From contig NZ_WBKA01000005.1 in the NCBI RefSeq assembly GCF_008831125.1, forward strand, positions 89,442-153,441: DNA of 64,000 nt, written 5' to 3'. The DNA is from Pseudoclavibacter caeni. Its GTDB lineage: Bacteria > Actinomycetota > Actinomycetes > Actinomycetales > Microbacteriaceae. The translations under genes and the position numbers were made by a program. This document shows positions 10,784 through 36,073 of this stretch, piece after piece (positions within the stretch are counted from its first letter, which is position 1; each line of letters begins with the position of its first letter). Below the pieces are notes generated by a model, which worked only from the letters and a program-made list of their open reading frames with translations, was not told the origin of the DNA and searched no databases.

Positions 10784-11464
10784 ATGACTGTCCAGCCGCT
10801 GGCCCGCGTCCAGATCGCCGACATCGCCCTCGACCTGTTCCTCGCCCGGGGATATGACGCCGTCAGCGCCGCCGACATCGCCCGTGCCGCCGGGGTGTCA
10901 CGCAGCACGTTCTTCCGCCAGTTCGGTGCGAAGGAGGACGTTATCTTCGCCGACCACGACGAGACGGTCGCCGCCCTTGAGGCGCATCTGGCCGAGCGGG
11001 CGCGGACCGGGTCAACGGACGCCTGGGACGACGTGGTCTCCGGCGCCATGCTCGTGCTCGACCGATTCCTCGACCGCCTCGACAGCATCCGCCGCCGTGA
11101 CGACGTCGTGCGGCGCACGCCGGCGCTGCGGGACCGGGAGATCGTCACCATCACCCGCTACGACCGGGCCTTCGACCGGCATCTGCGCGCCCGGCTGCCG
11201 GCGGTCTCCCCCATCCGCACCGTGCAGTTCGCCGACGCGGTTGCGGCGACCCACAACGCCGTGCTGCGTCGGGTGCTGCGCGACGGGCTCGGCCCGGCGG
11301 ATGCGCGAGACCGGCTCGCCCGGGAGCTCGCCGACCTGCGCGCCCGGCTCGTCGACGGGGACGCGGGCGCCGGCGAGTCCGTGGTCGTCGCGTTCCGGTC
11401 AAGCCTGCCGCTGGCCGAGCTGGATCGCCGGCTGCGCAAGCTCGGCGACCCGGATCGTATCTGA
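10784..11464 (+). CDS. TetR family transcriptional regulator
   Basis: A 226-residue one-component repressor. The N-terminal helix-turn-helix is clear (IADIALDLFLARGYDAVSAA, then GVSRSTFFRQFGAKEDV, about residues 8-55); the C-terminal part is the variable ligand-binding, dimerising domain. The gene ends 115 bp before the beta-oxidation fusion gene, and a perfect 23-bp palindrome lies in that gap. The simplest reading is a repressor of the downstream fusion, perhaps responding to an acyl-CoA as FadR-type TetR proteins do. Ligand and target are inference. Confidence 0.9.
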   Translation: MTVQPLARVQIADIALDLFLARGYDAVSAADIARAAGVSRSTFFRQFGAKEDVIFADHDETVAALEAHLAERARTGSTDAWDDVVSGAMLVLDRFLDRLDSIRRRDDVVRRTPALRDREIVTITRYDRAFDRHLRARLPAVSPIRTVQFADAVAATHNAVLRRVLRDGLGPADARDRLARELADLRARLVDGDAGAGESVVVAFRSSLPLAELDRRLRKLGDPDRI

Positions 11465-11502: not shown

Positions 11503-11579
11503 ACGATGGCGCCATCCGCCGACCGGGGCACACCGTCGTGCCGCGATCGGGATGCCGTGTCAGATCGAAGGAGACGACG

Positions 11580-14500
11580 ATGTCCCAGCCCCAGACCATC
11601 CCACAGCCGCAGCCTCAGCAGACGACGCAGGCGCCGGAGTCTCAGACACCGCCCCAGCCGGGACCCCGGCCCGGGGCCGAGGCCGCCCCGGCCCTCGCGT
11701 TCGAGACGACCGTCGTCGAGCATCGCGGCCACCGGATCGCCCGCGTGCTGCTGCGCCCGGCATCCGGCCTCGTCGTCTGGTCGCCGGAGGCGCTCGCCGC
11801 GCTGGCCGACTGGACGCGCGACGTCGACACGAGCGGCGTCGACGCCATCGCGTTCGCCGCGGCCGGTCGAGTGTTCGGCGCCGGGGCGGATCTCTCCGGC
11901 TTCCGCGACATCGCCGAACGGGACGCCGCCCGCGAGGCCGCGGCGGCCGGGTACCGGGCGCTCGCCGGGGTGAGCGCGCTGCCCGTGCCGACCTTCGCCC
12001 TGATCGGCGGGGCGGCCCTCGGCGGCGGCCTCGAGTTCGCGCTGCGCTGCGACCGGCGCATCGCCCGGGCGGACGTCGAGGGGCTCGGCCTGCCCGAGGT
12101 CGGGCTCGGCCTGGTGCCCGGCTGGGGCGGCATCCCCGCGGCGGTCGCGGTGATCGGCCCTGAGGCCACCGGCCGGCTCGCCGTCCTCGACGCGCTCTCC
12201 GGACGCGGCGTCGACGCGACCACGGCACGGACGATCGGCCTGGTCGACGACCTGGTCGACGACCTCGACGGCGTCGAGACGCTCGACCGCATCGTCGACG
12301 CGCTCGAGGCCGCCCCGGTGCGCCTGGAGCCCGAGGGCGCCGGCGAGGCGTGGACGCCGGACGCGCTGCTCGCCCGCGTGCGCCGGCGCATCCCCACGCC
12401 CCCGCCCGCGGTGGATCGGGCCGTGGCTCTCATCGCGCAGGCCGCCCGTCACCCCGACCCGGCGTTCCGGTCGGCGCAGGCCCGCATCGCGCAGGCCGGA
12501 ACGCCCCAGCCGCTCGAGGCCGAGACGATCGACGCGTTCGTCGACCTGCTCATGACCGACGAGAGCCGGGCGGCCATTCACGCGTTCTTCGCCCTGCAGC
12601 AGGCCCGCCGGCGGGCGCGCCCTTCCGGGGCGCAGCGGCGCGTCGACGCCGTCGGCGTGATGGGCGGCGGCCTCATGGCCACGCAGCTGGCGGTGCTGTT
12701 CGCGACCCGGCTCGAGGTGCCGGTGCGCGTCGTCGAGCTCGACGCCGACCGGGTCGAGCAGGCCCGCGCGCGGATCGCGGGGCTCCTCGACCGGGCCGAG
12801 GCACACGGCGACCTCGACGCCGCCGCCCGGGAGCGGATCGCAGGGCTGCTGACCGTGCACGCCGACGTCACCGCCGTTCACGGCGCCGACGTGGTCATCG
12901 AGGCCGTCTACGAGGATCTCGACGTCAAGCGCGCCATGTGGGCCGAGGTGGAGCCGCACGTCGCCGACGACGCGCTGCTGCTGACGAACACGTCCTCGCT
13001 GCCGGTCGCCGCGCAGGGCACCGCGCTGCAGCACCCCGAGCGGCTGATCGGCTTCCACTTCTTCAACCCGGTGGCGGTGCTGCCGCTCGTCGAGCTCATC
13101 GTGCCGGAGACCGCCGACCGCGGCCTGGCCGACACCGCCCTGGAGCTCGGCCGCCGACTCGGCAAGGCGATCGTGCGCACCGGAGACCGGCCGGGCTTCC
13201 TGGTCAACCGGCTGCTCAGCCGCCTGTTCGCCGAGGCACTCGAGCTCGTCGACGCGGGCTGGGACCCCCTGCTCGTCGACCGCTGCCTCGTGCGCGACGG
13301 CCTGCCGATGACCATGTTCACCCTGCTCGACCACATCGGCCACCCCGTGCAGCTGCACGTGCTGGAGACGCTGCACGAGGTGTGGCCGGAACGGTTCCCC
13401 GTGAGCACGAGCCTGCGCCTGCTCGTCGAGCGCACACCGGCCGGGTCGCGCTCCCGCTGGCTGGACGACTCCGGCCGACTGACCGCGGCGGCGCGCGACG
13501 CGATCGCGGTCGCCGTCGCCGAACGGCCCGCCCACGACCCCGCCTGCGACACCGCCGAGGCGGCCCGGCTGCACATCCTGCGCGGCGTCGCCGACGAGGC
13601 GGCGCTGATGCTCGCCGACGGCACCGTCACCGAGCCGGGCGACATCGACGCGGCGATGATCCTCGGGGCGAACCATCCCCGACACAACGGCGGCCTGCTG
13701 CCCCTGCTCGACCGCTCCGGGGCGAGCCGCCGCGCGCCGCGCGGGCGAGAGCTGCTGCCCGACGGCGAGGCGAACGTCCCCGGCGATCGGCACGACGACC
13801 TGCCGGCGCTGGCGGCCTACGACGTGCTGCGCCCACTCGACCTCGACTTCTACGGGGTGTTCGACGACGTGCCGGCGGAGGACCGTTCCTGGCACGAGCG
13901 GGCCCGCCGCTTCACAGACTCGATCGCCGACGAGGTCGACACCGCCTGGGACCATGCGGAGTACCCGCTCGTCTGGGCCCGCCGGCTCGGCGCGCTCGAC
14001 CTGCTCACCGACGGGGTGACCGGCCCGGGGCTCACTCCGATGTCGCCGCTGGCGGCCGGGCTCGTCGGCATGGAGATGCACCGCTGCGACGGGTCGGTCG
14101 GCACGGTCGTCGCCGTGCAGGGCGGGCTGGCCCTGCGCTCGATCGCGATGTTCGGCAGCCCGGAGCAGCAGCGCGAGTGGCTCGTCCCCCTCGCCCGCGG
14201 CGAGCGGCTAGGCGCGTTCGCGCTGACCGAGCCCGAGCACGGCTCCGACGCGGTCGCGCTGACCACGACCGCCCGCCGCGACGGCGATGGCTGGGTGATC
14301 ACCGGCCGCAAGAAGTGGATCGGCAATGGCTCGGTCGGCGACGTGACCGTCACCTGGGCCCGCGACGAGGAGGGCCGCGTGCGCGGGTTCCTCGTGCCGC
14401 AGACCGCGCCGGGCTACATCGCCGAGACGATCCGCGGCAAGGGGTCGCTGCGGTCGATCCATCAGGCGCTCATCACCTACGACCACGTGCGCCTGCCCGC

Positions 14501-14996
14501 CGACGCGGTGCTGCCCGGGGCCCGGTCGTTCAAGGACACGGCGCGCGTGCTCGCCGCGACCCGGCTCGGCATCGCCTGGGCTGCGGTCGGCCACGCGCAG
14601 GCGGTCACGGAGATCGCCGTGCAGTACGCCCGGCAGCGCCACCAGTTCGGTCGGGCGATCGGCGACACACAGCTCGTCCAGGAACGCCTGGCCGAGATGC
14701 TGTCGATCCTCACCAGCCTGCAGCTGCACGTGCGCACACTCGCCGAGCGGGACGCGGCGGGCACGATGCGCCCCGAGCAGGCGTCGCTGGCGAAGGTGAC
14801 CGCCACACGCGGGGCCCGGCGGATCGCCCAGCTGGGCCGGGACATGCTCGGCGGAAACGGCATCCTGCTCGAGTACGGGGTGATGCGGCACTTCGCCGAC
14901 ATCGAGGCACTGCACACCTACGAGGGTACCGAGAGCGTCCAGTCGCTCATCGTCGGCCGCGACCTCACCGGGCACAGCGCCTTCAGCGGACACTGA
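11580..14996 (+). CDS. Fused FadB-type enoyl-CoA hydratase/3-hydroxyacyl-CoA dehydrogenase and acyl-CoA dehydrogenase
   Basis: A 1138-residue polypeptide with three catalytic modules for consecutive beta-oxidation steps. After a Gln/Pro-rich leader, a crotonase domain (about 40-300) keeps the oxyanion segment FGAGADL and both catalytic glutamates (E152 in GGGLEFAL, E173 in LPEVGL). The NAD-binding hydroxyacyl dehydrogenase domain starts near 355 (GVMGGGLMA) with catalytic H493 in GFHFFNP; two C-terminal helical repeats follow to about 720. From about 750 comes a complete acyl-CoA dehydrogenase of glutaryl-CoA dehydrogenase-like type (FALTEPEHGSD, ARQRHQFGR) with the catalytic glutamate at E1115 in TYEGTES. 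The frame is continuous. The start has GAAGGAG upstream. FadB alone is about 700 residues and acyl-CoA dehydrogenases about 390, so the length is a sum of two full proteins. Thiolase is absent from the fusion but encoded 2 kb away. Chain-length preference is unknown. Confidence 0.9.
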   Translation: MSQPQTIPQPQPQQTTQAPESQTPPQPGPRPGAEAAPALAFETTVVEHRGHRIARVLLRPASGLVVWSPEALAALADWTRDVDTSGVDAIAFAAAGRVFGAGADLSGFRDIAERDAAREAAAAGYRALAGVSALPVPTFALIGGAALGGGLEFALRCDRRIARADVEGLGLPEVGLGLVPGWGGIPAAVAVIGPEATGRLAVLDALSGRGVDATTARTIGLVDDLVDDLDGVETLDRIVDALEAAPVRLEPEGAGEAWTPDALLARVRRRIPTPPPAVDRAVALIAQAARHPDPAFRSAQARIAQAGTPQPLEAETIDAFVDLLMTDESRAAIHAFFALQQARRRARPSGAQRRVDAVGVMGGGLMATQLAVLFATRLEVPVRVVELDADRVEQARARIAGLLDRAEAHGDLDAAARERIAGLLTVHADVTAVHGADVVIEAVYEDLDVKRAMWAEVEPHVADDALLLTNTSSLPVAAQGTALQHPERLIGFHFFNPVAVLPLVELIVPETADRGLADTALELGRRLGKAIVRTGDRPGFLVNRLLSRLFAEALELVDAGWDPLLVDRCLVRDGLPMTMFTLLDHIGHPVQLHVLETLHEVWPERFPVSTSLRLLVERTPAGSRSRWLDDSGRLTAAARDAIAVAVAERPAHDPACDTAEAARLHILRGVADEAALMLADGTVTEPGDIDAAMILGANHPRHNGGLLPLLDRSGASRRAPRGRELLPDGEANVPGDRHDDLPALAAYDVLRPLDLDFYGVFDDVPAEDRSWHERARRFTDSIADEVDTAWDHAEYPLVWARRLGALDLLTDGVTGPGLTPMSPLAAGLVGMEMHRCDGSVGTVVAVQGGLALRSIAMFGSPEQQREWLVPLARGERLGAFALTEPEHGSDAVALTTTARRDGDGWVITGRKKWIGNGSVGDVTVTWARDEEGRVRGFLVPQTAPGYIAETIRGKGSLRSIHQALITYDHVRLPADAVLPGARSFKDTARVLAATRLGIAWAAVGHAQAVTEIAVQYARQRHQFGRAIGDTQLVQERLAEMLSILTSLQLHVRTLAERDAAGTMRPEQASLAKVTATRGARRIAQLGRDMLGGNGILLEYGVMRHFADIEALHTYEGTESVQSLIVGRDLTGHSAFSGH

Positions 14997-16930: not shown

Positions 16931-18127
16931 TCAGGCGCGCTCGAGCACGCTGGCGTAGTTCGATACCGCGGTGCCGCCCATGTTGACCACCCCGGCGACG
17001 TCAGCGGTCGGCAGCTGCATCTCGCCGGCCGTGCCGGTCAGCTGCATCGCGCAGAGCACATGCTGCGACACACCGGTGGCTCCCACCGGGTGCCCCTTCG
17101 CCTTCAGCCCGCCGCTGACGTTGACGGGCAGCCGGCCGTCGCGTTCGACGGTGCCGTCGTCGAGCAGCCGCGCGCCCTGCCCCGGCTCGGCCAGGCCGAT
17201 CGACTCGTAGATGACGAGCTCGGCGATCGTGAAGCAGTCGTGCACCTCGAGCAGGCTGAAGTCGTCGAGGGTGCGGCCGGTGCGTTCGAGCGCGCGCTGC
17301 CAGGCTTCGCGCACACCGCCGAACAGGGTCAGGTCGCGCCGGTCGAGCGGCAGCCAGTCATTGGCCTGCTCGATCGCCCGCAGGTGCACGGCGCCGTGCC
17401 CGGTGTGCGGGGCGCGGTCGCGGCGGGTGAGGACGAGGGCGGCGGCCCCGTCGGAGACCGGCGAGCAGTCGGTGCGCTTCAGGCGGCCGAACACGGTGGG
17501 GTTGCGGTCGGAGACCGTCTCGCAGAAGGCCACGTCGAACGGCTTGTGCAGCTGTGCGTAGGGGTTGCGCATCCCGTTGGCGTGGTTCTTCGCGGCGATC
17601 TGCGCCATCGTGTGGGCGGGGTCGCCGTACCGGTCGGCGTAGGCGTCCGCGACGGCCGAGAACATCTCGGCGAACCCGCCGCGGGAGTCGGTGCCGGCCA
17701 GCTCGTAGGAGGCGCCGAGCAGTGCCCGGCCGACCTGCTCGGGGCTCGCCTGGGTCATCTTCTCGACGCCGATGACGAGCACCCGGTCAGCGTCGCCGCT
17801 GCGCACGGCGCGCACCCCGGTGCGTACGGCAGCGGCGCCGGAGGAGCAGGCGTTCTCGACCCGGGTCGCGGGCCGATACAGCAGCGCCTCGTCGATCTGC
17901 AGGGCGAGCGACGACGGGAACGCGAGCGGGACGAGCCCCGCGTTGTAGGTGCCGATGACGACCTCGTCGATGTCACCGGGCTCGAGGCCGGCGTCGGCGA
18001 TCGCCTGCCCGCCGATGCGGGTGATGAGGCTCTCCAGCGTCTCGTCGGGCAGCTTCCCGAAGCGGGAGTGGGCCCAGCCGGCGATCAGGACGTCGTCGGG
18101 GCGGGGATCGGTGCGGGTGGCGGTCAT
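16931..18127 (-). CDS. Thiolase / acetyl-CoA acetyltransferase (SCP2-type)
   Basis: A 398-residue thiolase-superfamily enzyme for cleavage or condensation of 3-ketoacyl-CoA. The acyl-accepting cysteine is C94 in ENACSSGA, and the HDCF and GHPVGATG motifs near the C-terminus are present. The classical terminal CxG cysteine of degradative thiolases is replaced by NMGG, as in the SCPx/thiolase-like branch, where the HDCF cysteine takes over. Its start overlaps the CoA-transferase beta gene by 4 bp (ATGA), indicating translational coupling. It is therefore the third gene of a CoA-transferase operon. It may supply the thiolytic step missing from the nearby beta-oxidation fusion (inference). Confidence 0.88.
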
Positions 18128-18801
18128 GCGTGGGTCTCCTCGGTCTCGGGCTGGATGATGTGCAGGTCGTCGGGGACGACGAGCGGCGCGTCGGTGCGCC
18201 GACGGATCTCGTCGACGGTGACGTCGGCGGGGTGGCCGACCAGGCGCAGCCCCTCCGGTGTGACGTCGATGACGGCGATGTCGGTGATGATCCGGTCGAC
18301 GGCACCGGCGCCGGTGAGCGGCAGGTCGCAGCGACGACGGATCTTGGGCGTGCCGTCCTTGGCAGTGTGGTCAGTGAGCACGATCACCCGTCGGGTGCCC
18401 GCGACGAGGTCCATGGCCCCGCCCGGCCCCTTCACCTTGCGCCCGGGGATCGCCCAGTTGGCGAGGTCGCCGCGCTCGGAGACCTGCATCGCCCCGAGCA
18501 CGGCGATGTCGATGCGACCGCCGCGGATCATCCCGAACGACAGCGCCGAGTCGAAAAAGCTCGCGCCGGGGGCGACGGTGACGGTCTGCTTGCCGGCGTT
18601 GATCACATCCGGGTCCTCCTCCCCCTCCCAGGGGAAGGCGCCGACGCCGAGGATGCCGTTCTCGGAGTGCAGGGTCACGTGCACTCCCTCGGGCACGTGG
18701 TTGGCCACCAGCGTGGGGATGCCGATGCCGAGGTTGACGTAGTCGCCGTCGTGCAGCTCGCGGGCCGCCAGCCAGGCCATCTGGTCTCGTGTCCAGCTCA
18801 T
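18124..18801 (-). CDS. scoB: 3-oxoacid CoA-transferase, beta subunit
   Basis: A 225-residue subunit B of a family I CoA-transferase, carrying the active-site glutamate E47 in HSENGILG, which forms the covalent CoA thioester. Other family features are [14 protein letters not shown] near residue 22 and the GGAMDL segment. It is 14 bp behind the alpha subunit and overlaps the thiolase start. The substrate may be acetoacetate, 3-oxoadipate or another 3-oxoacid. The accompanying thiolase is not of the PcaF type, which makes acetoacetate or another 3-oxoacid more likely than 3-oxoadipate. The symbol is provisional. Confidence 0.88.
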
Positions 18802-18815
18802 GGTTCACTCCTCTC

Positions 18816-19532
18816 TCAGGCCGCCACGTCGCGGGCGGGACGCGGGCGCACGGTGCGCCGCTCGATTGGCCGCTCCCGGTGCGCGGCCGAGACGACGGAC
18901 TCGACGAAGATGCCGGGCGTCTCGATGCGGTCTGGCTCGAGCGCGTCAGGCTCGATGCGCTCGGCCTCGACGACGGTGTGGTCGGCGGCCTGGGCGACGA
19001 GCGGGTTGAAGTTGCGGGCCGCGGCCCGGTAGGCGAGGTTGCCGAACCGGTCGGCCCGGTGAGCGTGGACGAGGCCGAGATCGGCGTGCAGCGCCGTCTC
19101 GAGCAGATGCGGCACCCCGTCGAAGTCACGCACCTCGTGGTCGCGGGCGACGTCGGTGCCGACACCGGTGGGCGTGTAGAAGGCGGGGATGCCGGCCCCC
19201 GCGGCGCGCAGCCGCTCGGCGAGCGTGCCCTGCGGCACGAACACGACCTCGACCTCGCCGGCGATCATCTGCCGGGCGAACTCGTCGTTCTCCCCCGCGT
19301 ACGAGCAGTGCACGCGGGCGACCTGGTGGCTGTCGAGCAGCAGGCCGAGCCCGACGCCGTCGAGCCCCATGTTGTTGGAGATGATGGTCAGCTCCCGCAC
19401 CCCCGAGTCGCGCACTGCCTCGATGAGCTCGAGCGGCGAGCCGCAGATGCCGAACCCGCCCACGGCGATCGTCATCCCGTCATGCAGCAGCGGTTCGAGC
19501 GCCTGGCGCGCCGCCGTGATCCGCTTGATCAT
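18816..19532 (-). CDS. scoA: 3-oxoacid CoA-transferase, alpha subunit
   Basis: A 238-residue subunit A of a family I CoA-transferase, with the glycine-rich CoA-binding segment GGFGICGSP near residue 26 and NMGLDGVGLG near 54. The last 30 residues are an Arg/Pro/Glu-rich extension. It is the first gene of a three-gene operon with the beta subunit and a thiolase. GAGGAGG stands before the ATG. An IclR regulator is transcribed away from it, and the shared 154-bp gap is full of GGAC/GTCC boxes, so IclR control is likely. The symbol is provisional. Confidence 0.88.
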   Translation of the reverse strand: MIKRITAARQALEPLLHDGMTIAVGGFGICGSPLELIEAVRDSGVRELTIISNNMGLDGVGLGLLLDSHQVARVHCSYAGENDEFARQMIAGEVEVVFVPQGTLAERLRAAGAGIPAFYTPTGVGTDVARDHEVRDFDGVPHLLETALHADLGLVHAHRADRFGNLAYRAAARNFNPLVAQAADHTVVEAERIEPDALEPDRIETPGIFVESVVSAAHRERPIERRTVRPRPARDVAA

Positions 19533-19684
19533 GTGGACCTCCTCATCCCTGGACCAGTGCGGACCCCATTGTCCACATGCCGGTCATCGACTCTCATCGA
19601 CTGCCCCGAGCGTAAAGACGGCCGGGCGCGCCGGCAAATGATATACACGCCCCGATGGACACCAGTCATGTCCGTATAGTGGAC
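19531..19684. promoter_or_regulatory. Divergent promoter with GGAC/GTCC boxes (candidate IclR operators)
   Basis: Between the CoA-transferase operon and iclR there are repeated GGAC/GTCC boxes: ATGTGGAC at 19531-19538 pairs with GTCCACAT at 19571-19578; GGACA at 19657-19661 pairs with TGTCC at 19669-19673 over a 7-nt spacer; GTCC at 19670 and GGAC at 19681 bracket the -10 hexamer. The last two would place a repressor on the regulator's own promoter. Confidence 0.55.
19675..19680 (+). promoter_or_regulatory. -10 hexamer of leaderless iclR-type gene
   Basis: TATAGT lies 6 nt before the GTG start codon; no Shine-Dalgarno sequence fits in between. Confidence 0.6.
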
Positions 19685-19686
19685 CC

Positions 19687-20487
19687 GTGAACGATGACCA
19701 CGCCGCCCAGACCGGCACGCAGTCGCTCGACCGGGCGTTGCGCCTCCTCCACCTCATCGCCGACGCGGACGCCCCCTGCGGCACCGGCGAGCTGTCCCGC
19801 CGGGCCGGACTGACGCGTCCGACCGCCCACCGGCTGCTGCAGGGCCTGCACCACGCCGGCATGGTCTCCCGCGCGGACGCGACCGAGCCCGTCACGGGGT
19901 CGCACCGCACGGCACGCTGGGAGCTGGGGCCGCAGCTGGCCGTGCTCGGCACGCTCGCCGCGGCGCGACGACCGCTCCCCCGGCTCGCCCGGCCGCTGCT
20001 GCAGCGGATCGCCCAGGCCACCGGGGAGAGCGCGTTCCTCTCCGTGCTGCGCGGCCACACGACCGTGTGCGTGGCTGAAGAGGAGGGCTGGTACCCGATG
20101 CGGTCGTACGTGCTGCACGTGGGCAGCCGGTTCCCCGTCGGCGTGGGCACCGCGGGGATGGCGTTCGCGGGACTGCTCGACGCCGACGAGCTCGACCGGG
20201 CGCTCGCGGCGACCCGGGCCGGGCGGGTGGAGCTCGGCCCCGCCTTCGACGACGACCGGGTGCGGGTGCGCGCCGAGCGGACGCGACGGCTCGGCTGGGC
20301 GTGGAACCCCGGCCTCATCGTGGCTGGCAGCCACGGGGTCGGCGTGGCGGTGCGCGAGCCGGGGGCGCCGGCCTGGGCGCTGAGCGTCACCGGGGTGGAG
20401 CAGCGCTTCGCCGACGGACGCGCCGAGCGACTTGCGGAGACGCTGCTGGAGGCGGCGACCGAGCTGCGCGAGCGGCTCGCCCGCTGA
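19687..20487 (+). CDS. IclR family transcriptional regulator
   Basis: A 266-residue regulator with an N-terminal winged helix-turn-helix (SLDRALRLLHLIADADAPCG, TGELSRRAGLTRPTAHRLLQ, about residues 12-60) and the C-terminal IclR effector domain (GESAFLSVLRGHTTVCVAEE, then FPVGVGTAGMAF). In the family this domain binds small organic acids. It is divergent from the CoA-transferase/thiolase operon, the usual arrangement for an IclR protein controlling that catabolic operon. The GTG start is set by TATAGT 6 nt upstream. Confidence 0.92.
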   Translation: MNDDHAAQTGTQSLDRALRLLHLIADADAPCGTGELSRRAGLTRPTAHRLLQGLHHAGMVSRADATEPVTGSHRTARWELGPQLAVLGTLAAARRPLPRLARPLLQRIAQATGESAFLSVLRGHTTVCVAEEEGWYPMRSYVLHVGSRFPVGVGTAGMAFAGLLDADELDRALAATRAGRVELGPAFDDDRVRVRAERTRRLGWAWNPGLIVAGSHGVGVAVREPGAPAWALSVTGVEQRFADGRAERLAETLLEAATELRERLAR

Positions 20488-34806: not shown

Positions 34807-35071
34807 GCGCTCCTCTCGACGCGGCCATCGTAGTCAGCGCACGGAGTGCCGCTGTACCAGGAGATCATCGCACCGCGACGGCGTCGCGGAGCACCGACCG
34901 TGCAGCGGGTCCGTGTCCGTGCGCACGGTATCCCCGCCATCCCGCGGAATGTCCCTGCCGCCCGCCGTGTTCCATTACCTGGGTCTCGTGCGACCTCGAC
35001 GATGACGCCGACCTCCCCGCGGCCCGCGCGCCGCGACCCGCGTGCGCGCAGTGCATTCCGAAGGAGGAATC

Positions 35072-36073
35072 ATGTCTGAGCCCACTGAGCCTGCTGCGAC
35101 CACCGGATCCGCCGGGGGGCAGGCCCCTGCCGCATCCACCCCGACCGTCTCGCGGGCCGCTGTCGTCGGCGCCGGGCTGATCGGCCTGTCGTGGGCGTCG
35201 CTGTTCGCCGCTGAGGGGCTCACCGTGAAGGTGTGGGATCCCCGCCCCGATCTCGCCGAGGCGCTCGCGAAGACGGTGCCCCAGGCGGTCGCCGGGGTCC
35301 CGGGCTTCCCGGATGACCCGGACGCCGTCGCCGCCGCCGTCGCCCGCGTGATCCCGGTGACGACGATCGCCGACGCGGTCGCCGACGCCGAGCTCGTGCA
35401 GGAGGCCGGCCCGGAGCGGGCGAACATCAAGCAGGCGAACTGGAAGGAGGTCGAAGCGCACGCCCCGGCCGACGCGCTGCTGCTGTCGTCCAGCTCGGGC
35501 ATCGTGGCGAGCGTGCAGTCGGAGCTCATGGTCAACCCGCTGCGCCTGCTGATCGGGCACCCGTTCAATCCGCCGCACGTGCTGCCCCTGGTCGAGGTCT
35601 CGGCCGACGAGCAGACCGACCAGGCCCTCATCGACCGGGCGCTCGCGTTCTACCGGTCGATCGGCAAGCATCCGGTGCAGCTGCACAAAGAGGTGCCGGG
35701 CTTCGTCGCCAACCGCATCCAGGCGGCCGTGATCGTCGAGGCGATCCGGCTGGTCGACGCGGGCGTCGTCAACGCCCGGGAGCTCGACGACATCGTCACC
35801 AACTCGCTCGGCATCCGCTGGGCGAGCGTCGGCCCGTTGCTCGCCTTCCACCTGGGCGGCGGCGAGGGCGGCCTGAAGTACATCCTCGAGCACATCGGCA
35901 AGGGGCTCGCGGAGGACATCGGCCAGGGCGACGCGCTCACCGACGAGGTGATCGCGCACATCGGCGCCGACGCCGACCGGGAGTACCCGCACCGGGACTT
36001 CCCCGAGTACATCGCCCGCCGCGACCGCCTGCAGAAGGCGGTCATCGCCGAGCGGCAGGCCGAGCAGGCCTGA
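35072..36073 (+). CDS. 3-hydroxyacyl-CoA dehydrogenase-like NAD oxidoreductase
   Basis: A 333-residue dehydrogenase of the 3-hydroxyacyl-CoA dehydrogenase family, standing alone. The NAD-binding motif GAGLIGLSWASLFA lies near residue 33; the catalytic histidine is in LIGHPFNPPHVLPLVEV, and GKHPVQLHKEVPGFVANRIQ opens the C-terminal helical domain. The pattern HPFNPPH is close to L-carnitine dehydrogenase and 3-hydroxybutyryl-CoA dehydrogenase-like enzymes, so the substrate may not be a CoA ester. AAGGAGGAAT before the ATG is an unusually strong ribosome site. A clear terminator follows. Confidence 0.88.
   Translation: MSEPTEPAATTGSAGGQAPAASTPTVSRAAVVGAGLIGLSWASLFAAEGLTVKVWDPRPDLAEALAKTVPQAVAGVPGFPDDPDAVAAAVARVIPVTTIADAVADAELVQEAGPERANIKQANWKEVEAHAPADALLLSSSSGIVASVQSELMVNPLRLLIGHPFNPPHVLPLVEVSADEQTDQALIDRALAFYRSIGKHPVQLHKEVPGFVANRIQAAVIVEAIRLVDAGVVNARELDDIVTNSLGIRWASVGPLLAFHLGGGEGGLKYILEHIGKGLAEDIGQGDALTDEVIAHIGADADREYPHRDFPEYIARRDRLQKAVIAERQAEQA

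Follow-up and report, generated by a model that had tools for sequence, protein, structure and literature searches.

How has one bacterial gene come to encode three consecutive steps of beta-oxidation, and where would the electrons of the first step go? This question is raised by a gene of Pseudoclavibacter caeni (Microbacteriaceae) at positions 11580-14996 of the window, i.e., the whole stretch of 64,000 nucleotides analysed here. The presence of a FadB-type hydratase/hydroxyacyl-CoA dehydrogenase module and a complete acyl-CoA dehydrogenase (ACD) module on this one polypeptide is near certain. Judging from sequence comparison, we consider it fairly probable that the chain carries acyl-CoA through three steps to 3-ketoacyl-CoA and that the first of these likely passes its electrons to O2 and not to electron transfer flavoprotein (ETF).

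The frame had been described in an earlier note on this DNA as uninterrupted over 1138 residues, and both the translation of the window (1138 codons plus stop, plus strand) and the G+C content per codon position bear this out. The latter is high, low and highest at positions 1, 2 and 3 over the entire gene, and since this pattern continues through the joint between the modules, nothing points to a frame slip. ATG at 11580 is preferable to GTG at 11538 as start codon, because a strong ribosome-binding-site-like sequence directly precedes it. The features of the locus are as follows.

11580-14996, plus strand: fused gene, FadB-type hydratase/hydroxyacyl-CoA dehydrogenase and ACD/oxidase of the ACX4/glutaryl-CoA dehydrogenase (GCDH) branch, 1138 amino acids (open reading frame, Pfam, second database copy)
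11567-11574, plus strand: ribosome-binding-site-like GAAGGAGA, ahead of ATG 11580 (sequence)
11823-12263, plus strand: ECH_1, enoyl-CoA hydratase domain, residues 82-228, with E152 at 12033-12035 and E173 at 12096-12098 (Pfam, alignment)
12651-13187, plus strand: 3HCDH_N, NAD-binding domain of 3-hydroxyacyl-CoA dehydrogenase, residues 358-536, with H493 at 13056-13058 (Pfam, alignment)
13194-13430, plus strand: 3HCDH, C-terminal domain of 3-hydroxyacyl-CoA dehydrogenase, residues 539-617 (Pfam)
13671-13811, plus strand: joint and low-confidence linker, residues 698-744, where the FadB tail meets the ACD head, without a stop codon and without a counterpart of the acd start of congeners (sequence, model, congener comparison)
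13878-14204, plus strand: Acyl-CoA_dh_N, N-terminal ACD domain, residues 767-875 (Pfam)
14214-14486, plus strand: Acyl-CoA_dh_M, middle domain, residues 879-969, with W913, G915 at 14322-14324 (position of the flavin-N5 Thr) and Q962 at 14463-14465 (position of ACX4 Asn255) (Pfam, alignment)
14544-14966, plus strand: Acyl-CoA_dh_1, C-terminal domain, residues 989-1129, with the proposed catalytic base E1115 at 14922-14924 (Pfam, alignment)
10784-11464, plus strand: TetR-type regulator directly upstream of the fused gene, kept in three congeners (sequence, congener comparison)

All six Pfam domains score over their curated cut-offs. Every domain type that the earlier note had named is present in the order given there; of the two 3HCDH domains it listed, Pfam recognizes a single stretch. 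By its sequence the N-terminal half is FadB-type, with a hydratase carrying two catalytic glutamates followed by 3HCDH_N and 3HCDH with the catalytic histidine, and the ACD half has the three domains and the catalytic glutamate that define its superfamily. The catalytic residues expected from the outset (E152, E173, H493 and E1115) are invariant among relatives chosen from the listed matches: all 39 aligned FadB sequences share E152, E173 and H493 as well as E505, S472 and N543, and all 31 aligned ACD sequences share E1115. An AlphaFold2 model built with 71 sequences reached a mean pLDDT of 77.2 and a pTM of 0.57. Values below 50 occur in residues 1-30, 574-603, 605-615, 644-656, 698-744, 954-957 and 1093-1138. 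Since the linker 698-744 is among them, the two modules probably form independent units joined by a flexible tether. Channelling of the intermediates, raised as a possibility in the earlier note, is a hypothesis. The VIA-align rows cover mainly residues 753-1118 and so bear on the ACD half only, while Foldseek bears on the FadB half. The N-terminus of the chain (11580-11690) consists of approximately 30 Pro/Gln-rich residues modelled with very low confidence.

An assembly or sequencing artefact that deleted the stop and the start between two separate genes is extremely improbable. Such an error would explain why a single species shows the fusion while each of the three congeners examined has two genes; the earlier note had feared the loss of a stop codon at 13.70-13.85 kb. 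However, a protein database search with residues 700-1138 (7,996 candidates scored; 101 matches, each of them listed) recovered a protein, P0002, of likewise 1138 amino acids that has the same joint and agrees with the window's chain in 1137 of 1138 residues, with only the last one different. P0002 represents a cluster whose 15 members are spread over 5 contigs of up to 22,693 bp; because even the longest of these is not the window's own contig (153,441 bp), at least one other record carries the joint. Moreover, the frame is kept, the codon-position signal is continuous, and the shortening of 59-127 bp relative to the congeners spans both stop and start and not one base. We therefore reject a frameshift or assembly artefact.

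The earlier note had regarded the attachment of a complete ACD to the C-terminus of FadB as unusual, and our searches agree. The genome searches comprised 59 relatives, 398 genomes of the family Microbacteriaceae and 396 of the phylum, and our statements cover the matches listed; among these, a full-length match to the fused query was found in the genome of P. caeni only. No other chain with both modules occurs among the 120 listed of 420 whole-query matches in the protein database (7,985 scored candidates), and no other clean FadB-ACD fusion among the 101 protein matches to residues 700-1138. Within what could be searched, the fusion is thus restricted to this species or close relatives of it. 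Several candidates for a second case were rejected. The proteins P0004 and P0048 combine 3HCDH and ACD domains, but, judged from the protein alone, their linkers resemble wrong-frame translation, with an Arg/His/Pro fraction of 0.35 and 0.38 (0.27 here) and a hydrophobic fraction of 0.17 and 0.18 (0.28 here), and in P0004 a methionine fit to start a normal ACD comes after this stretch; both are likely frame-slip products. P0014, an ACD with a thiolase, was judged by eye to be similar to them. In another genome (G114, C1:3317873-3321187, L176) a FadB and a different type of ACD lie in one frame as near-fusion neighbours, and a single TGA separates them, so that they read as two genes. ACDs of the same branch are fused behind an alpha/beta hydrolase in P0005, P0009, P0019 and many other database proteins; these likewise carry an N-terminal partner, which is a hydrolase and not a beta-oxidation enzyme. 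Open-licence papers, searched by titles and the beginnings of abstracts and including the topics of bacterial or ETF-less acyl-CoA oxidases and fadNAE, contained no description of a fused FadB/ACD architecture.

Comparison with congeners suggests how the fusion may have come about. In Pseudoclavibacter soli DSM 23366 (G001, NZ_AUIC01000004.1) and two further congeners (G002, G003), fadB and acd are separate neighbours on the same strand, in the same order and behind the same type of TetR regulator, and are 53-55% (FadB) and 73-76% (ACD) identical to the halves of the fused chain. The distance from the FadB motif LLDRSGAS to the ACD motif YDVL is 173, 218 and 241 bp in these congeners, compared to 114 bp without a stop in the window. 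Their acd genes begin with a Met codon 2, 71 and 76 bp past the fadB stop, with AAAGGA just before the start in G002 and G003. The window offers no more than three GTG codons in frame between 13701 and 13900, and the 20 bases ahead of each show no clear Shine-Dalgarno stretch; given these missing start signals, a separate translation of the ACD half from its own start appears unlikely. Downstream of acd, both congeners checked (P. soli and G002) possess a thiolase gene (291 and 287 bits against Thiolase_N), whereas no FadA-type partner adjoins the fused gene: its place is occupied by an opposite-strand DUF2207 gene, which in the three congeners lies past the acd and thiolase region. The nearest thiolase in the window (16931-18127) belongs to another subfamily, and the best place for the congeners' thiolase in the P. 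caeni genome scores 107 bits.

We infer that an in-frame deletion in this lineage likely joined two neighbouring genes and so produced the fusion, which is likely recent. The starting point would have been an operon TetR - fadB - acd - fadA, from which the deletion would have removed the fadB stop, any spacer (2 to 76 bp in the congeners) and the acd start codon; fadA would have been lost as well. With both the stop/start pair and the adjacent thiolase gone, two losses would have affected one operon. The module order (second, third and first step), which had been called notable, is confirmed, but it would have a plain origin in the gene order of the relatives' operon.

Do these losses mark a decaying relic on its way to pseudogenization? 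We regard this as improbable. The missing FadA, the genome size of 2.06 Mb (2.2-2.4 Mb in the congeners) and the modest identity of the FadB half to its congeners would fit decay, but the 1138 codons contain neither stop nor frameshift and every catalytic residue checked is kept. Divergence was estimated by the Nei-Gojobori method, and the values are rough owing to extreme third-position G+C. Between the fused gene and the congeners, dN is 0.41-0.44 and dS 0.76-1.11 for the FadB half, and dN 0.18-0.21 and dS 0.64-0.77 for the ACD half. Between P. soli and the other two congeners, both unfused, dN is 0.41 for FadB and 0.15 for ACD. As FadB dN is the same among unfused congeners, the fused FadB half is not decaying faster; the fused ACD half appears to evolve somewhat faster than its unfused counterparts.

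The ACD half had been called FadE-like, which holds broadly, as its ACD domains are complete; more precisely, it falls in the GCDH/ACX4-like branch and has Gly in the flavin-N5 position, and its genome yielded no ETF. Its best structural match (tied) is the acyl-CoA oxidase ACX4, the peroxisomal short-chain enzyme of Arabidopsis (2ix5/2ix6). In the motif W913-I-G915 the glycine occupies the flavin-N5 position at which dehydrogenases have Thr. ACX4 has the same Gly and likewise keeps the Trp, and Gly is found in 31 of 31 chosen close relatives. The differences from ACX4 should also be noted: the identity is 32%, Q962 aligns with Asn255 (an amide, but not Asn), ACX4 stands alone, and an oxidase activity of the bacterial protein is a prediction. 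A different substrate is conceivable, in that a glutaryl-CoA dehydrogenase on a chain for glutarate or lysine breakdown would supply crotonyl-CoA to the hydratase and dehydrogenase. Glutaryl-CoA dehydrogenases make up 9 of the 11 top sequence matches among solved structures, and several relatives are named so by jgi. Nevertheless, we consider this reading very improbable and reject it: glutaryl-CoA dehydrogenases (3sf6, 2eba, 1siq) have an arginine in 'D-S-G-x-R', which we take to bind the glutaryl carboxylate, and the N5 Thr, whereas the ACD half has Gly841 in place of the arginine (Gly in 31 of 31 chosen relatives) and Gly at N5. The glutaryl-CoA dehydrogenase model reaches only 145 of the 470 bits of its cut-off. 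The ACD half is thus probably not a glutaryl-CoA dehydrogenase.

The tied best match to ACX4, the N5 Gly and the absence of an ETF match together suggest, with moderate confidence, that the first step is ETF-independent, with O2 as the likely acceptor; an ETF-linked dehydrogenase appears less likely. The ETF profile PF01012, which matches in 10 of 14 controls, has no match in the P. caeni genome or in any of the three congeners. Of the 398 family genomes, 116 carry a match (112 of them with scores over cut-off), which leaves 282 without detected ETF; the fused query matched in 375 of 398 at E 1e-60 or better, and at least 259 genomes hold one or both modules without detected ETF. Among 64 GCDH/ACX4-like sequences (phmmer, at least 200 bits), those from ETF-less genomes have Gly in 41 cases and Thr in none, those from ETF-bearing genomes Gly in 17 and Thr in 6 (Fisher p 0.0013, which ignores the relatedness of the sequences). 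This motif table took every listed row from ETF-less genomes, a few more from the search of 59 relatives and part of the listed ETF-bearing rows; it left out L042, L043, L044 and L087, which were duplicate entries or lay outside the set of genomes, L121 and L145, which phmmer did not match, and 12 aligned rows below 90 bits. In a gene tree including paralogues, the label 'Gly, ETF-less' needs 15 changes. According to PMC6017585, the exchange T317G alone confers low oxidase activity on a dehydrogenase and W315F/T317G/E377N together confer more, the engineered N377 being likened to Asn255 of ACX4. PMC8593149 reports for an actinobacterium that its ACDs require ETF; on octanoate, the loss of ETF was bypassed there by a yeast acyl-CoA oxidase.

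Several observations weigh against O2 as the acceptor and against the three-step scheme. The six Thr sequences form a single clade (100/98), so the Gly/Thr association does not amount to 64 independent tests, and 17 Gly-type sequences stem from ETF-bearing genomes. Eight other ACDs from ETF-less genomes (90-200 bits) have Thr in seven cases and Gly in one; the lack of ETF alone therefore does not mean O2. The oxidase activity of T317G is described as 'very low' compared to the dehydrogenase activity, and even with all three exchanges the enzyme's reaction with O2 is far slower than that of typical oxidases (PMC6017585). W913 remains Trp, where the triple mutant used Phe, yet ACX4 itself keeps Trp. 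The confidence of the structure model is moderate, with pLDDT below 50 at 954-957 near Q962 and at 1093-1138, which hold E1115. For E. coli FadE no ETF partner is known, and a direct handover of electrons to the respiratory chain is regarded as a possibility (PMC11495604), so that the absence of ETF is no proof of an oxidase. Finally, the adjacent FadA is gone and the last step needs another thiolase, the best candidate in the genome (G000 C10:46218-47429, L177) scoring 229.5 bits against TIGR01930, just under the cut-off of 240.55.

The chain could be a genuine fusion whose ACD half is an ordinary dehydrogenase with a non-ETF acceptor, e.g., a membrane oxidoreductase or quinone. E. coli FadE likewise has no known ETF partner, and the named close relatives among the 120 listed are acyl-CoA dehydrogenases (ncbi) or glutaryl-CoA dehydrogenases (jgi). 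Six ETF-less genomes (G004, G005, G011, G012, G019 and G028) each have an ACD with K-Q-F-I-T-N, i.e., Thr at the N5 position. We nonetheless find an ordinary dehydrogenase rather unlikely, given ACX4 as tied best structural match and a Gly, throughout the chosen close relatives, at the position proposed to gate O2 (PMC6017585), with ETF as the one acceptor searched for.

With O2 as acceptor, we infer the following reactions and their order from the domains. The C-terminal module would convert acyl-CoA to trans-2-enoyl-CoA on FAD with E1115 as base, releasing H2O2; the N-terminal module would hydrate trans-2-enoyl-CoA via E152/E173; the middle module would oxidize 3-hydroxyacyl-CoA with NAD+ and H493; and cleavage of the 3-ketoacyl-CoA would fall to a separately encoded thiolase located at another place in the genome. 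The thiolase on C10 possibly replaces the lost FadA.

The listed Foldseek matches of the FadB half are alpha chains of trifunctional enzymes and other multifunctional enzymes related to them. The Mycobacterium tuberculosis alpha chain (4b3h; best E 3.9e-34) shares module order, catalytic residues and fold with residues ~85-720, but in P. caeni the chain runs on into a whole ACD and has no neighbouring thiolase partner gene. NCBIfam equivalog scores of the fused chain are under the cut-offs for FadJ (302 of 869 bits) and FadB (268 of 870); the unfused relatives P0103 and P0105 (355 and 317 of 870) also fall short of the latter, which indicates that the whole group is divergent. The ECH_1 profile matches at three places in the P. 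caeni genome, i.e., the fused gene, MenB (546.5 bits) and a 3-hydroxyisobutyryl-CoA hydrolase (333.8 bits), the latter two over cut-off. Of two further single 3-hydroxyacyl-CoA dehydrogenase genes, one is over an NCBIfam cut-off (404 bits, cut-off 312) and the other, at window positions 35042-36073, is not.

Elsewhere in the window, positions 16931-20487 hold a minus-strand PRK07516-type thiolase and 3-oxoacid CoA-transferase subunits B and A, with a plus-strand IclR-type regulator at 19687-20487. This is possibly a ketoacid-CoA cluster, and the 18 kb of sequence compared around the operon in each of the three congeners contain no match to it. Three neighbouring ACD-fold proteins resembling DszC/SfnB/FadE16, under cut-offs, are located at G000 C1:528000-542000 (L179). 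P. caeni is reported as abundant in caproate/caprylate reactors (PMC11334527), and so is the genus (PMC12369010).

More tentatively, the chain may represent a single-chain bacterial pathway of peroxisomal type (acyl-CoA oxidase, enoyl-CoA hydratase and 3-hydroxyacyl-CoA dehydrogenase) in a lineage with ETF-free beta-oxidation. One purified protein would then perform steps one to three of beta-oxidation and provide a simple system for studying tethering, flux and the containment of intermediates. It would also become directly testable by which means the many Microbacteriaceae without detected ETF (282 of 398 genomes) oxidize acyl-CoA, and whether the branch consists of true oxidases. If the oxidase reading is right, the names acyl-CoA dehydrogenase or glutaryl-CoA dehydrogenase may be wrong for the genes of this branch that bear them, and if the pathway is indeed of peroxisomal type, the frequent absence of ETF across the family would go together with this oxidase branch.

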